NCBI RefSeq assembly: GCF_000178955.2
Contig: NC_016631.1
Location: 496,001 to 560,000, forward strand
Source of the DNA: Granulicella mallensis MP5ACTX8
GTDB taxonomy: Bacteria > Acidobacteriota > Terriglobia > Terriglobales > Acidobacteriaceae
DNA length: 64,000 nucleotides
Reading direction: 5' to 3'
Part shown: in pieces, positions 14,125 through 61,480 of the stretch
How positions within the stretch are numbered: the first letter of the stretch is position 1
Layout: every line of letters begins with the position of its first letter
The notes under the pieces: generated by a model
Databases searched by the model: none
Told to the model about the DNA's origin: nothing
Seen by the model: the letters and a program-made list of their open reading frames with translations, nothing else
Position numbers and translations under genes: made by a program

Positions 14125-14340
14125 GCGAGAGTCCAGCGCCAAAGGCGCGGCATATCCCAGCCTGGGGTGAAGCCCCAGGTTACGGACACACACAAATTCC
14201 AGAGGGCTGAAGGCCCGGCATATCTCGCTTGTGCAGACGAGATATGCCGGGCCTTCAGCCCTCTGGACCCTTATAGACCTTGTACCTGGGGCTCACGCCC
14301 CAGGCTGGGATATGCCGCGCCTTTGGCGCTGGACTCTCGC
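14125..14340. repeat. Nested 216-bp palindrome E1
   Basis: Outer arms starting GCGAGAGTCCAGCGCCAAAG are complementary for more than 40 bp. An inner hairpin has perfect 29-bp arms (14199-14227 and 14238-14266, starting CCAGAGGGCTGAAGG) around a 10-base loop. Smaller hairpins (CAGCGCC/GGCGCTG type and CTGGGG...CCCCAG) lie within each arm. It ends 6 bp from the galU stop and could fold as a strong 3' structure on galU mRNA. Parts (GGCATATCCCAGCC) are shared with E2 and E3. Confidence 0.85.
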
Positions 14341-17754: not shown

Positions 17755-18003
17755 GCCTTTCTAGTTTGTCATTCCCGTAGGGAATCTGCTTTTGTCTTTG
17801 CAGTTGCATTTGCTTTTCTGGTTGTCATTCCGACCCTCGAGCGAAGCGAAGGGGAGTGAAGGGGAGTGAACCTGCTTCCTCCCGCTCTTCGCCAGTGCTG
17901 CCACAAACATTACGCGTTAGCTCAACCAGGCCCAGCTCCAATCCCCATGCTTTCTGGGTGTTTACAGGAAATCTCCTGTTACCGGGTAGTTGAATCGGAC
18001 GTA
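17755..18003. repeat. Family D element (truncated) fused to a family B end
   Basis: From about 17755 come family D left-arm sequences (CTTTCTAGTTTGTCATTCCC, then a second start GCTTTTCTGGTTGTCATTCC), CTGCTTCCTCCCGCTCTTCG and a D core ending TTTCTGGGTG at 17960. At that point the D element stops and a family B right end begins (ACAGGAAATCTCCTGTTACCG, about 17963-18003). It appears to be a junction formed by one element inserting into or recombining with another. The B end overlaps the 3' end of the acyltransferase gene. Confidence 0.7.
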
Positions 18004-19620: not shown

Positions 19621-19725
19621 TGTCTTTGCCTTTGCTTTTCTGTTTGTCATTCCCGCAGGGAATCTGCTTCTGTCTTTGCTGTTGCTTGTTTTTCGTCGTC
19701 ATCCTGAGGCGTAGCCGAAGGACCC
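19621..19725. repeat. Family D partial copy
   Basis: Contains TGCCTTTGCTTTTCTGTTTG-TCATTCCCGCAGGGAATCTGC and then GCTTGTTTTTCGTCGTCATCCTGAGG, which is also found as a complete hairpin at 38766-38822. No matching right arm is present. Confidence 0.65.
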
Positions 19726-25805: not shown

Positions 25806-25953
25806 GGTGTTTTTGCCTTTGCTCTTGCTTTTCTTGTTGTCATTCCCGCAGGGAATCTGCTTTTTGCTTTTGCCTTTGCTTTTCTGGTTGTCATTCCGAG
25901 CGCAGTGAGGAACCTGCTGTCTCCCGCTCTTCGCTCGTACTACCCGGAAAAGC
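25806..25953. repeat. Family D copy, partly deleted
   Basis: Two successive left arms (TTGTCATTCCCGCAGGGAATCTGC; TTGTCATTCCGAGCGCAGTG), CTGTCTCCCGCTCTTCGC, a short core CCCGGAAAAGCAAAGGC as the only right-hand sequence. It lies in the gap between gatB and the next plus-strand gene. Confidence 0.7.
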
Positions 25954-27570: not shown

Positions 27571-27777
27571 GCCTTTGCTGTTCTGGTTGTCATTCCGAGC
27601 GCAGCGAGCGAACCTGCTGTCTCCCGTTTTTCGCCATTGTTGCCACAAGCGTTATCTATTAGCGCAAACTAGCTCGTTTCAGTTCCAGCCCGCGTGTTTT
27701 CTGGGTTCTGCAACCAAAGAACGGGAGACAGCAGGTTCGCTCGCTGCGCTCGGAATGACAACTAGAAAAGCAAAGGC
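27571..27777. repeat. Family D element, full copy
   Basis: A 207-bp element with long inverted arms: GCCTTTGCTGTTCTGGTTG-TCATTCCGAGCGCAGCGAGCG-AACCTGCTGTCTCCCG and the reverse complement CGGGAGACAGCAGG-TTCGCTCGCTGCGCTCGGAA-TGACAACTAGAAAAGCAAAGGC, around a core of about 95 bp with TTTTCTGGGTT and CCACAAGCG blocks. The core matches, in inverse orientation, those at 52201-52405 and 61172-61370. Confidence 0.88.
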
Positions 27778-38582: not shown

Positions 38583-38890
38583 GGTGAAATCTCCTTTAAG
38601 CCAAAAGTGCTCAACACCACCTTAAATTGATCGATGTACGGTTGTCAACAATTTTCTTGAAACAAATTTGCTTGCCCAACGTGATGACGTTTTGGCTGGA
38701 AATTTGGAATTGTGAGGAGAAGAGAGCTTCTTTTGAGGAGGAACAGGGACGGTGCCTTTGTCGTTGCTTGTTTTTCGCCGTCATCCTGAGCCGATGGCTC
38801 AGGATGACGACGAAAAACAAGCAACAGCAAAGACTGTCTGCAAGCTATGAATTGATTTTTTAGTAGTAACGGGTAGTGCGCAGAAACCAC
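38583..38890. other. Intergenic region with a hairpin of the D type
   Basis: Between the TonB-C gene and the moaA stop, both minus strand. The first 120 bp (38583-38700) are A/T-rich and likely hold the promoter of the TonB-C gene. A near-perfect hairpin lies at 38766-38822. No gene is supported. Confidence 0.55.
38766..38822. repeat. Hairpin GCTTGTTTTTCGCCGTCATC...
   Basis: Two 27-bp arms around GAT with one mismatch (GCTTGTTTTTCGCCGTCATC-CTGAGCC and partner). The same arm occurs unpaired in the D fragment at 19683-19710. It may function as a terminator-like structure downstream of moaA. Confidence 0.75.
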
Positions 38891-44273: not shown

Positions 44274-44406
44274 AGAGGCAAGAGCTAGTTGAACGAATAC
44301 GCCTTTTGCTTTGCCTTTCTTGTTGTCATTCCGAGCGCAGCGAGCGAACCTGCTTGGATTCAAACTCGAAGTGCAACATTTTCTTTTCTAAGGAGGAAGA
44401 TGTTGC

Positions 44407-45495
44407 ATGGGTCGAACGTACAAGCAGTTTTCTATGGAGGAGCGCTGTCTTCTGCAGACGCAGTTATCGATGGGTTGGAGGCCGGCGGCGATAGCCGCCG
44501 GCCTCCAACGGGCGCGGTCCACGGTCACCCGGGAGATGGGTCGTAATGGCTGGCACGTTGCGCAGCCTAGTCCGAAGGGCGGTCGCCGGTTTATCGCCGG
44601 AGGCTATTCTGCGGTGACGGCAGATCGACGTGCCCGAAGGTTGCAGCGCATGCCGCGGGTTGCGCGCAAACTGGTTCCAGGCACCCTCGTGTGGGACCTT
44701 GTCGTGGCCGAGCTTGGCCGGGGCTTGAGTCCGGAGCAGGTTGGGTTCACACTCAGGCGTATGCCCGATCCGGTGCGTCTGTCGCACGAGACCATCTACA
44801 CCGCGCTCTACGCCATGCCACGGGGAGAACTCCGCGCCCGCGTGATGACGATGCTGCGCCGCCGCCGGATGAGCCGCAGATCGCGCTCCAAGGCCGCTGT
44901 GGACCCCAACCGCCGTCACTTCATCGACCCCATCAAGCTCATCGACCAGCGGCCCGAGGAGGTGGGGCTTCGCCTGGTCCCGGGACACTGGGAAGGAGAC
45001 CTGATCAAGGGCAGACTCAACCAGTCCCGCGTCGGAGTGCTGGTGGAGCGAACCACGCTATTCCTCGCCCTGGTCAAGCTCGAAGACGGCTCGGCAAAGA
45101 CCTGCGCGGAAGGCTTCGCCCGCATCCTCAACCGCTTCGCCTCCCAGATGCGCCGTTCCATGACCTACGATCAGGGACGAGAGATGGCCCAGCACAAGTG
45201 GCTGGAACAGCAGACTGGCATCGAGGTCTACTTCGCCCATCCCCACTCGCCATGGGAGCGCGGCATCAACGAAAACACCAACGGCCTGCTCCGACAGTTC
45301 CTGCCCAAGGGACAAGACCTCGGTCACTTCTCACAACAGCAGCTCGACGATATCGCCATGCTCATGAATGCTCGCATCCGAAAATCACTCGGAAAACGAG
45401 CTCCAGCTGAACTCTTCCTCCCAGAAGGAGCCTTCGACTTCGTTGAGTTCTGGCAAAATCCTGGTATGTTCACAAATGTTGCACTTGGGGCTTGA
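44407..45495 (+). CDS. IS30-family transposase
   Basis: 362 residues with AAGGAGG about 10 bases before the ATG. N-terminal helix-turn-helix (YKQFSMEERCLLQTQLSMGW, then ARSTVTREMGRN). The DDE catalytic core is complete: Asp 198 in GHWEGDLIKG, Asp 255 in SMTYDQGREMAQH and Glu 289 in HSPWERGINENTNGLLRQF. The C terminus continues into the right terminal repeat. The DNA encoding residues about 24-34 is a perfect 34-bp palindrome. The intact frame, full catalytic triad and clean ends suggest recent activity. Confidence 0.96.
   Translation: MGRTYKQFSMEERCLLQTQLSMGWRPAAIAAGLQRARSTVTREMGRNGWHVAQPSPKGGRRFIAGGYSAVTADRRARRLQRMPRVARKLVPGTLVWDLVVAELGRGLSPEQVGFTLRRMPDPVRLSHETIYTALYAMPRGELRARVMTMLRRRRMSRRSRSKAAVDPNRRHFIDPIKLIDQRPEEVGLRLVPGHWEGDLIKGRLNQSRVGVLVERTTLFLALVKLEDGSAKTCAEGFARILNRFASQMRRSMTYDQGREMAQHKWLEQQTGIEVYFAHPHSPWERGINENTNGLLRQFLPKGQDLGHFSQQQLDDIAMLMNARIRKSLGKRAPAELFLPEGAFDFVEFWQNPGMFTNVALGA
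44475..44508. other. Perfect palindrome inside the transposase gene
   Basis: TTGGAGGCCGGCGGC, loop GATA, GCCGCCGGCCTCCAA: 15-bp perfect GC-rich arms 68 bases after the transposase start. As mRNA it would be a very stable stem just inside the coding region, within the helix-turn-helix segment. Confidence 0.85.
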
Positions 45496-45694
45496 ATCCA
45501 AGCTGCTTTCTCCCGTTCTTCGTTCGCATTACCAAAAATCATGCGTAAGAACCAAGAGACCTAGCTTGTGTTGACATGGGCTAAAAGCGGGAGAAAGCAG
45601 GTTCGCTCCCCTTCGGCTACACTCAGGGTCGGAATGACGACAAGAAAAGCAAAGGCCGATTTCGGGTGCTCCTGGCACTGGAGATAAAACCGTT

Positions 45695-50858: not shown

Positions 50859-51009
50859 GCCTTTGCCTTTCTTGTTGTCATTCCCGGAGGGAATCTGCTT
50901 CTTGCCGTAGCGCCACGATGCCAAGTTCGATTCTTCTCAGCGCGAGTGTCGTGCCACGGACGGACAGCAGATTCCCTTCGGGAATGACAAGAAAAACAAT
51001 AGCAAAGGC
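50859..51009. repeat. Family D element with a different core
   Basis: Arms GCCTTTGCCTTTCTTGTTG-TCATTCCCGGAGGGAATCTGC and GCAGATTCCCTTCGGGAATG-ACAAGAAAAACAATAGCAAAGGC enclose a core of about 65 bp unlike that of the other copies (ATGCCAAGTTCG). It is the CCCG-GGGA arm subtype. It lies between the carboxylesterase and the convergent esterase. Confidence 0.8.
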
Positions 51010-51024
51010 AAAAACGGTACTTCG

Positions 51025-52200: not shown

Positions 52201-52405
52201 TGTTTTTGCTTTTCTAGTTTGTCATTCCGAGCGCAGCGAGTGAACCTGCTTCCTCCCGTTCTTCGTTCGCACCACCCAGAAAACATGTGGCCAGAACTGA
52301 AAGCGCATGGCCTGGCCTAAACACTACCGTTGTGGCGGCACTGGCAAAAAACGGGAGGAAGCAGATTCACTCGCTGCGCTCGGAATGACAACCAGAAAAA
52401 CAAAT
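52201..52405. repeat. Family D element, full copy
   Basis: Arms TGTTTTTGCTTTTCTAGTTT-GTCATTCCGAGCGCAGCGAG-TGAACCTGCTTCCTCCCG and its near-exact reverse complement, core of about 95 bp with CCACCCAGAAAACATG and TTGTGGCGGCACTGGCAAAAA. The core is inverted relative to the copy at 27571. Confidence 0.88.
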
Positions 52406-52441
52406 GCAAAAGCAACCTGCAAAGGCAAACCATCTCTTGGA

Positions 52442-58303: not shown

Positions 58304-58385
58304 GAGGTTCTCCTATGACTATGCTATCGAAGTGCGGGGTGTAAGACCTTGTCTGCAGGCCATCTCTTTAGAGTGAAGGTCAGAG

Positions 58386-59023
58386 TTTCGTTAAGGGCAC
58401 GGGTTTACCCGTGCCACAAAAAGCCCATCCCGGCACGCGGCTTTAGCCGCTGAGGGAAGCGCGATAAAATCGCGCACAGTGTCTATCCCGCCACGACCGG
58501 TTCACTCAGGAACATTCCTGGTCACCTCTGCGACCTACAATCGCAGGCGCCTGTTTCAGGTCATCGTAAACTGCGATCTTTTCGTTGAAACGCTCCAGCA
58601 CTATCGACGCGAGATCGACGCGAGGGGCATTATCTTTTGCACGATTTCGTCGTGATGCCAGAACATATCCACCTTTTATTGACGCCACAAAACATCACTC
58701 TCGAACGAGCTGTAGGCCTCATCAAAGGCGGCTTTTCACACCGGTTGGGATCGAAGTTTCCAGTATGGCAACGAGGCTTCACGGATCAGAGGGTTCGCGA
58801 TCGAGAAGGCTTTCTGGCGGCGCGAAGGTACATCCACATGAATCCGGTAGAGGAGCGTATGTGCGAGAACTCCGAAGACTACAAGTGGTCCTCGGCATGG
58901 AAGGGCGCGCAGAGGCCTGTAGCGAGCAAATAAAGCCTGGCGCGATGCGCCTTCCCCCAGCGGCTGAAGCCGCGTGCCGTGTCGAGTTTCTGTGGCACGG
59001 GTAAACCCGTGCCCTTAACGAAA
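58386..59023. mobile_element. REP-RAYT unit: inverted REPs around a broken tyrosine transposase
   Basis: A perfect 33-bp inverted repeat (58386-58418 and 58991-59023, starting TTTCGTTAAGGGCACGGG, each itself a GGGCACGGGT...ACCCGTGCC hairpin) brackets a second inverted pair, GGCACGCGGCTTTAGCCGC (58434) and GCGGCTGAAGCCGCGTGCC (about 58960). Between them lies an IS200-like REP-associated transposase gene. This is the typical layout in which a RAYT sits between REP sequences that it is thought to mobilise. Confidence 0.88.
58479..58933 (+). pseudogene. REP-associated tyrosine transposase, frameshifted
   Basis: Two frames make one protein. The first begins at GTG 58479 and reads PPRPVHSGTFLVTSATYNRR then ETLQHYRREIDARGIIF. 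The second picks up near 58637 with HDFVVMPEHIHLLLTPQN, IKGGFSHRLGSKFPVWQRGF, RRYIHMNPVEERM and SSAWKG. The HUH motif HIH, the catalytic Tyr region YIHMNPV and the SxW ending are RAYT hallmarks. A one-base loss between about 58620 and 58640 (in or near a TTTT run) separates the halves. The full protein would be about 150 residues, usual for the family. Confidence 0.85.
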
Positions 59024-59072
59024 CCAAGGCTGCTAAGGCTCAAGATATTGCCTGAGAGAAAAGTCTTCTACA

Positions 59073-61109: not shown

Positions 61110-61480
61110 CGATTTCTATTTTCTCATTACTGCTTTCTCATCCTTGCGCTTTTGCCTTTGCCTTTGTTCTTGCCTTTGCTTTTCTGGTTGTCATTCCGAG
61201 CGCAGCGAGCGAACCTGCTTCCTCCCGCTCTTTGTTCATATCTCCCAGAAGATACGCGCCAGAGCCGGAGCTTGGTTTGGGCTCACTCATGTCGCTTGTG
61301 GTAGCACTGGCAAAAAACGGGAGAAAGCAGGTTCGCTCGCTGCGCTCGGAATGACAACAAGAAAGGCAAAAACAAGAGCAACAGCAGATTCCCTGCGGGA
61401 ATGACAACCAGAAAAGCAAAGACAACTGCTAGCCGTTTCACCCTTTAACTGCATCGAAAGGAAGTTGGAGCCTTGCACAA
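61110..61480. other. Intergenic region, mainly a family D element and a partial second copy
   Basis: D element at 61172-61370 and, immediately after, CAGATTCCCTGCGGGAATGACAACC-type sequence to about 61425, the right arm of another D subtype; matching left-arm text GCCTTTGTTCTTGCC lies before 61172. One D element therefore seems nested in another. No gene is supported. Confidence 0.65.
61172..61370. repeat. Family D element, full copy
   Basis: Arms GCCTTTGCTTTTCTGGTTG-TCATTCCGAGCGCAGCGAGC-GAACCTGCTTCCTCCCG and reverse complement, core with TCTCCCAGAAGAT and GTGGTAGCACTGGCAAAAAA; core oriented as in 52201-52405. Both sides carry remains of an outer D arm. Confidence 0.85.

Follow-up and report, generated by a model that had tools for sequence, protein, structure and literature searches.

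Family D of Granulicella mallensis MP5ACTX8: Mostly Intergenic Inverted-Repeat Elements with TGTC-Tagged REP-Type Arms and a Polar Core

The window analyzed here, a stretch of 64,000 nucleotides of the tundra soil bacterium Granulicella mallensis MP5ACTX8 (Acidobacteriota; NC_016631.1, positions 496,001 to 560,000), carries several copies of an element, family D, which is an inverted repeat of about 210 bp with two 40-nt REP-type arms placed head to head and a polar core of about 90 bp between them. A full copy starts with a T-rich tail, followed by the 40-nt arm TTGTCATTCCGAGCGNAGCGAGCGAACCTGCTGTCTCCCG, the core and then arm and tail once more in reverse complement, and the whole reads as a long imperfect palindrome with little variable arms. 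The copy at 27571-27777 (minus strand, strands of D elements being those of the core) has its left arm at 27587-27626, a polar core of about 95 bp at 27627-27721 (-), a right arm that extends to 27761 and hexamer tails outside, and its arms are 95% complementary over 61 nt. Two other full elements lie on the plus strand at 52205-52415 (core 52259-52351) and 61172-61381 (core 61228-61317), and a fourth is divided into a left part at 44301-44355 (+) and a right part with core and right arm at 45500-45656 (+) by an IS30-family element (44356-45499, limits approximate, +), which is not part of family D and whose transposase ORF occupies 44407-45495 (NF033563, 253.6 bits). Since the IS30-family element sits inside the D element, D predates the IS at this site. 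The first-pass annotation had claimed these four copies, and all of them are real; its statement that the core occurs in both orientations was borne out as well, as the cores align as one polar sequence once oriented (66% mean identity over 435 pairs of MP5ACTX8 copies), and nearly all D copies examined carry no gene, in accordance with the claimed lack of coding capacity.

At 50859-51015 (no strand) subtype-2 hairpins form a head-to-head dimer with a different and shorter core, similar arms and another core having already been described for this copy, and a further subtype-2 hairpin (GTCATTCCCGNAGGGAAT) adjoins the 61172 element at 61384-61407 (-). Partial copies had been listed at four places, two of which indeed hold truncated D elements beside subtype-2 hairpins: the one at 17806-17960 (+), in which a CCCTCGAGCGAAGCGAAGGG hairpin is nested in the arm hairpin, lies next to an unpaired subtype-2 hairpin at 17766-17789 (+), and the one at 25872-25950 (+, end approximate), consisting of one arm and the start of the core, stands in tandem with a subtype-2 hairpin at 25837-25860 (+). 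The other two have to be reassigned: the supposed copy at 19621 is a lone, unpaired subtype-2 hairpin at 19644-19667 (+) followed by a GTCATCCTGAG hairpin, and that at 38766 is a collapsed palindrome at 38753-38834 (no strand) of the sister GTCATCCTGAG family and not D. The nesting of the arm subtypes in one another was upheld.

The D arms begin with T-TGTC-ATTCC; the TGTC tag was present in 91 of 92 arms with a pattern allowing one mismatch, and the arm tail is CTG in nearly all listed arms. As read from the sequences, the D arm has a short stem that contains tandem G-A mismatches and is closed by a GNA loop; this hairpin, subtype 1, can be written as ATTCC-GA-GC-GNA-GC-GA-GGAA, while the subtype-2 hairpin ATTCCC-GNA-GGGAAT has a stem of 6 bp and a loop of 3 nt. 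DNA mini-hairpins of such GNA-loop type are unusually stable. The stem of subtype 2 opens with a complementary A-T (GTC-ATTCCC..GGGAAT); most D arms read GAACC, so that their first A is unpaired. The sister family GTCATCCTGAG follows the same plan as D with the tag CGTC. Furthermore, a degenerate hexamer array of approximately [TCG]TTG[CT][CT] precedes 112 distinct TTGTCATTCC sites, of which at least one is no hairpin, on their upstream side, where it is phased with the tag and fades across 30-40 nt. The MP5ACTX8 genome contains 164 occurrences of the arm motif GTCATTCCGAGCGNAGCGAG and 126 of the subtype-2 hairpin, whose backwards control patterns both scored 0. Among the first 100 of the 164 subtype-1 motifs, 70 stand in head-to-head pairs, a few of these with subtype 2, and one in a tail-to-tail arrangement, the spacing of the pairs being nearly always 121-156 bp among the listed places; for subtype 2, 40 of the first 105 of 131 places are paired and the rest include tandems with subtype 1 and singles. 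A D core flanked on both sides by subtype-2 arms at MP5ACTX8 5671057 indicates that the core can be separated from its arms.

Co-occurrence of arms and core was upheld by the genome-wide search, which placed at least 40 distinct D elements in the MP5ACTX8 genome, a single contig of 6,237,577 bases (the chromosome size is given as 6,237,577 in the abstract and as 6,211,694 in the text of PMC3910553); the count is a lower bound, 40 of 258 candidates having been scored. A D query matched 15 of 41 genomes, all of them Granulicella and some through the arms only, and none of the 16 genomes outside Granulicella; Granulicella sp. S156 and G. mallensis X5P3 hold further D copies. Likewise, a 21-base arm pattern was detected among GTDB contigs in Granulicella only, in 43 stretches of G. 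mallensis X5P3, sp. S156 and sp. L46, records near the window possibly being left out of this search. A phage or plasmid origin was rejected, as neither collection yielded a D match at E 1e-5. In IMG/VR the D arm had 0 matches, the subtype-2 hairpin occurred in 5 stretches and a general form in 21. On two metagenomic IMG/VR contigs labelled viral (L260-L263) the exact subtype-2 matches all share one strand (8/8 and 3/3), also among genes of mixed direction (ORFs viewed for L260-L264), and these contigs may be host DNA. With respect to gene context, 29 of 30 D copies are intergenic according to our own ORF model in three blocks of MP5ACTX8 and the second strain G022, and the 29 are distributed over 14 tandem, 8 convergent and 7 divergent spacers, roughly as expected from spacer length. 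The earlier statement that these elements never interrupt genes holds except for a single copy, which may reflect a wrong start call.

When folded as single strands, two D copies each form one long hairpin, with z scores of -17.0 for DNA (copy L017) and -16.4 for RNA (window copy), and 0 of 200 shuffles were equally stable for both DNA and RNA. Identical left and right arms were observed in 13 of 45 elements as compared to 3.5 expected, which 0 of 10,000 shuffles reached, and the total of arm differences was 280 as compared to 397 on shuffling (18 of 10,000 shuffles). Orthologs of both strains are among these 45 elements; run again with the 30 elements of MP5ACTX8 alone, the test gave 9 elements with identical arms against 2.7 expected (1 of 10,000 shuffles) and 142 arm differences against 250 (0 of 10,000 shuffles). 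The shuffles take elements as unrelated, one of 47 elements without a full arm pair was dropped, and the arm test passed over one of the remaining 46. Both-sided changes were seen at 4 of 38 predicted arm pairs, and the variable GNA base is changed in this way in 13 of 40 sequences. Within an element the two arms are thus shown to be coupled in the manner of base-paired partners, a coupling for which selection on an RNA hairpin could be an alternative source. The hexamer tails of one element, unlike the arms, do not match each other, their inverted comparison being at the level of shuffles. The D core as a structured RNA was rejected, since structure prediction on an alignment that left out 6 of 46 elements with nested arms or extra hairpins gave no consensus structure for the core and Rfam gave no match to D at gathering scores.

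Turnover of the family was followed by comparing 764 kb of MP5ACTX8 with 675 kb of G022, most likely G. mallensis X5P3; of this, 532 kb fall in aligned chains with flanks mostly 91-97% identical (about 94%). Nine D sites are common to both strains and eight are not, a full D element being absent from the other strain at 3 of 12 informative MP5ACTX8 sites and at 5 of 14 informative G022 sites. One of the five G022-only sites is a D element that has collapsed to a short palindrome in MP5ACTX8, apparently at an ATTC microhomology, and at another the G022 element separates the two halves of what is a short hairpin in MP5ACTX8. In several of 16 gaps chosen from 45 small gaps, the two strains carry different repeat families in one and the same spacer. 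The core is flipped at three of nine shared same-core sites (at least 85% identity), namely 236164, 523563 and the L019/L128 site, five of the nine having been added for cores at least 88% alike. At three shared sites, 5649478, 5755491 and 5031877, core identity is 67-77% (72-80% by a second count) and the counterpart cores rank 2nd, 9th and 13th among MP5ACTX8 cores, as if the cores had been replaced. Shared sites with cores 91-94% identical were also observed. Taken together, the aligned strains show D elements that were evidently gained or lost, collapsed, flipped and re-cored in place. At one pair of sites, L021 (MP5ACTX8 931967) and L133 (X5P3), the D core is 100% identical (84/84) within flanks of 92-94% identity, which suggests recent conversion or transfer.

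The extent of the moving unit is indicated by L003 and L008, which lie at 2.21 and 6.15 Mb and have cores 95.7% identical: their alignment agrees over both arms and about 1-2 tail hexamers, and beyond these the sequences look unrelated. The agreement ends just outside the arms, so that in at least this case arms and core have spread as one unit. Target duplications, for which a check was run, were not clearly detected in 34 elements: the mean longest flanking direct repeat was 5.5 as compared to 5.3 for shuffled flanks (33 of 200 shuffles as high), with direct repeats of at least 8 nt in 4 elements against 2.2 on shuffling, fuzzy tails making the element ends uncertain in this test. Nor did the comparison of MP5ACTX8 with G022 contain a clean empty site with an undisturbed target, and the spacers differ widely. 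Long inverted repeats of another make were observed at 245736 and 446971 of MP5ACTX8 and at their G022 counterparts, where the arms are degenerate tandem arrays with units of about AAGTGGY, or TTAGGG/CAGGGTT-like units, that differ between the strains.

Of the unpaired subtype-2 hairpins, 46 of 65 in MP5ACTX8 and 27 of 38 in the genome G006 are found on the lagging strand, which gives a combined count of 73 of 103 (p = 2.7e-5, or 0.0015 when thinned to a single hairpin per 50 kb). The MP5ACTX8 strands derive from the first 105 of 131 places, pairing in G006 was judged against exact partners, and the replication frame was set by dnaA (467-952 in MP5ACTX8, 2.14 Mb in G006) with the terminus assumed opposite. 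The hairpins are furthermore arranged in same-strand domains, with 14 runs as compared to 32.6 expected in MP5ACTX8 (0 of 20,000 shuffles) and 10 as compared to 18.1 in G006 (70 of 20,000 shuffles). The lagging-strand polarity is mostly reversed in the region of 0-0.56 Mb of MP5ACTX8; GC skew is weakly positive at 216-620 kb in the part examined. Gene orientation as the cause of the polarity was not supported, subtype-2 hairpins in tandem spacers being co-directional in 6 cases and opposite in 6. The orientation of the D core is unbiased, at 7+:6- in one chromosome half and 10+:7- in the other. The lagging-strand preference of the sister hairpins hints at a role of single-stranded DNA.

Candidate enzymes were sought among Y1 transposases (PF01797), of which MP5ACTX8 has 6 matches; among three scanned in frame, two correspond to NCBIfam REP_Tyr_transpos and one to IS200. 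PF01797 was found in 26 of 28 Granulicella genomes (84 matches at 83 loci), and the exact subtype-2 hairpin in 12 of the 28. Y1 flanks were searched over about 1.5 kb per side where the contig allowed, a few loci being cut by contig ends: a TGTC/CGTC motif occurred near 9 of the 83 loci, within 1 kb at 3 and within 500 bp at 1, and no locus in the 28 genomes had the motif on both sides, so that no Y1 transposase gene with matching ends was found for D. A Y1/RAYT gene adjoining D was consequently rejected for the 83 loci examined. In the closest case, L215, a subtype-2/subtype-1 tandem lies on one side only, at a distance of 250-307 bp; it was taken as chance, the G. mallensis blocks having a background of 0.19 motif sites per kb. 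Additionally, 4 of the 6 Y1 genes of MP5ACTX8 are framed by long inverted repeats of their own that are unrelated to D.

The first-pass annotation knew of no named family that matches, which holds for the exact family: the literature covered, which lay outside most subscription papers and all preprints, contained no paper describing the Granulicella D family. The kind, however, is known. Di Nocera et al. (2013; PMC3733652) reported palindromes with a CGTC/TGTC tag that form head-to-head dimers, and according to the text of that paper these resemble D in the unpaired TGTC/CGTC tag, the head-to-head dimers with conserved spacers, the intergenic location, the high copy number and the lack of a dedicated transposase, the CGTC repeats being described there as without association to transposase genes. 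The stem starting with AT is shared by subtype 2. The CGTC-tagged REPs of the same text differ in having a stem of 8-9 bp, a loop of 4-5 nt and a CCA tail, as compared to CTG in D and to the stems and loops of D and subtype 2, whereas the polar core of about 90 bp and the degenerate hexamer tail are particular to D; the text reports them from five phyla, among which Acidobacteriota is not named. D was therefore not placed in CGTC families 1-4, a distinction drawn from the text description and not from the consensus figures of PMC3733652. The neisserial dRS3, filed under CGTC-1 in PMC3733652, and the NIME repeats (PMC3898611, as there outlined) likewise form intergenic mosaics in which ATTCCC...GGGAAT palindromes are combined with RS repeats measuring 30-160 bp, the palindrome being ATTCCC(N8)GGGAAT in dRS3 and ATTCCC(N3)GGGAAT in Granulicella subtype 2. 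REPINs (Bertels and Rainey, 2011; PMC3116915) are, in the account given there, also extragenic inverted REP doublets that replicate together with their spacer and form a hairpin, but they bear another tag, and D lacks proximity to a cognate Y1 (RAYT) gene in the 28 Granulicella genomes; since this link was examined and absent, D was not classed as a REPIN proper. D is best called a variant of the REP-dimer kind, acting like CGTC/TGTC REP dimers and REPINs.

We therefore lean, with somewhat better than even confidence, toward D as a non-autonomous REP-dimer element in which the TGTC-tagged arms together with the polar core would be the unit that is copied. Following this, we propose that the long hairpin would form in single-stranded DNA at the replication fork, a step that we infer from the lagging-strand preference of the unpaired sister hairpins, and that an enzyme recognizing TGTC-tagged hairpins might copy or move D in trans. 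Template switching or conversion within the hairpin would keep the arms matched, recombination across the arms would flip or swap the core, and slippage at the hairpin base may grow the hexamer tail. Against this model count that no enzyme was found and no clean empty site was seen, that flips and core swaps need nothing beyond ordinary recombination, that selection on an RNA hairpin could also couple the arms, and that the strand signal, mostly reversed at 0-0.56 Mb of MP5ACTX8, belongs to the sister hairpins, D cores being unbiased. A more specific form, in which a non-Y1 enzyme of a new type would move TGTC/CGTC REPs via lagging-strand hairpins, leaving the hexamer tails as a footprint of slippage or addition and copying D as a dimer, is speculative and we consider it rather improbable as a whole. 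That D is instead a REPIN proper, mobilized in trans by the REP-associated (Y1, HUH) tyrosine transposases of the genome, appears unlikely. Architecture and hairpin fit the definition as worded in PMC3116915, the two REP_Tyr_transpos proteins among the three of six PF01797 matches scanned in frame would be at hand, and a lagging-strand bias suits single-strand transposition; nevertheless, the hairpin motif lies within 500 bp of one and within 1 kb of three of the 83 Y1 loci and on both sides of none, unrelated long inverted repeats surround four of the genome's own six Y1 genes, and Y1 genomes can be without hairpins (26 as compared to 12 of 28).

Another possibility is that D is immobile now, consisting of old intergenic hairpins kept for an RNA role as terminator, RNase III site or mRNA stabilizer and shuffled by recombination. 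The very stable RNA fold, the arm coupling, the intergenic position of 29 of 30 copies and the shared sites with cores 91-94% identical would all agree with it, yet we regard it as quite improbable: placement roughly follows the supply of spacers (14/8/7), without the preference for tandem and convergent spacers that the text of PMC3733652 reports for other REPs, the core has no predicted consensus RNA structure, and the L003/L008 duplication along with the eight unshared sites shows turnover. Least probable, and by our estimate very unlikely, is that D derives as a MITE from a double-strand DDE transposon whose terminal inverted repeats span about 60 bp. A size of about 210 bp, long inverted ends, the absence of genes and a duplicated unit made of arms and core would be expected of such an element; against this, direct repeats flanking the 34 elements with their fuzzy ends were not clearly above shuffles, no larger parent with the same ends was present among the scored matches, and arms are found around other cores and as single, unpaired hairpins too.

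CGTC-type repeats were reported without a dedicated transposase (in the text of PMC3733652), and Granulicella offers a tractable test of how such orphan REPs are copied. Available for it are two strains whose flanks are about 94% identical but which disagree at roughly half of the examined D sites, a recent-looking duplicate, 28 genomes with and without hairpins and, within the same genome, a contrast with REP-like families around Y1 genes. The agent that copies an orphan REP and the way in which its arms remain matched thus become approachable, and with a duplicate, unshared sites, coupled arms and a strand bias to build on, the copying question can be tested in a soil bacterium.

Among the repeats around Y1 genes, matches to the Rfam family Acido-Lenti-1 RNA (RF01687) adjoin IS200-type genes, in the window at 14135-14179 (-) and 14285-14330 (+). 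RF01687 was detected at 10 of 12 chosen IS200-type Y1 loci at E<=0.1 and at 5 of 12 at the gathering score (the loci concerned include L031, L149-L152, L154-L156, L172, L173 and L212), as compared to 1 of 20 other Y1 loci at E<=0.05. At several Y1 loci it is present on both sides as inverted ends, and the pair in the window has perfect inverted arms of 43 nt; the Acido-Lenti-1 RNA looks like a terminal hairpin (REP) of a Y1 element. In addition, a weak PF01797 match in the window (24.7 bits, 58634-58837, +) is framed by inverted repeats at 58385-58422 and 58987-59024, which begin with GTTTCGTTAAGGGCACGGG, and the same repeat is found as a spacer insertion in G022.
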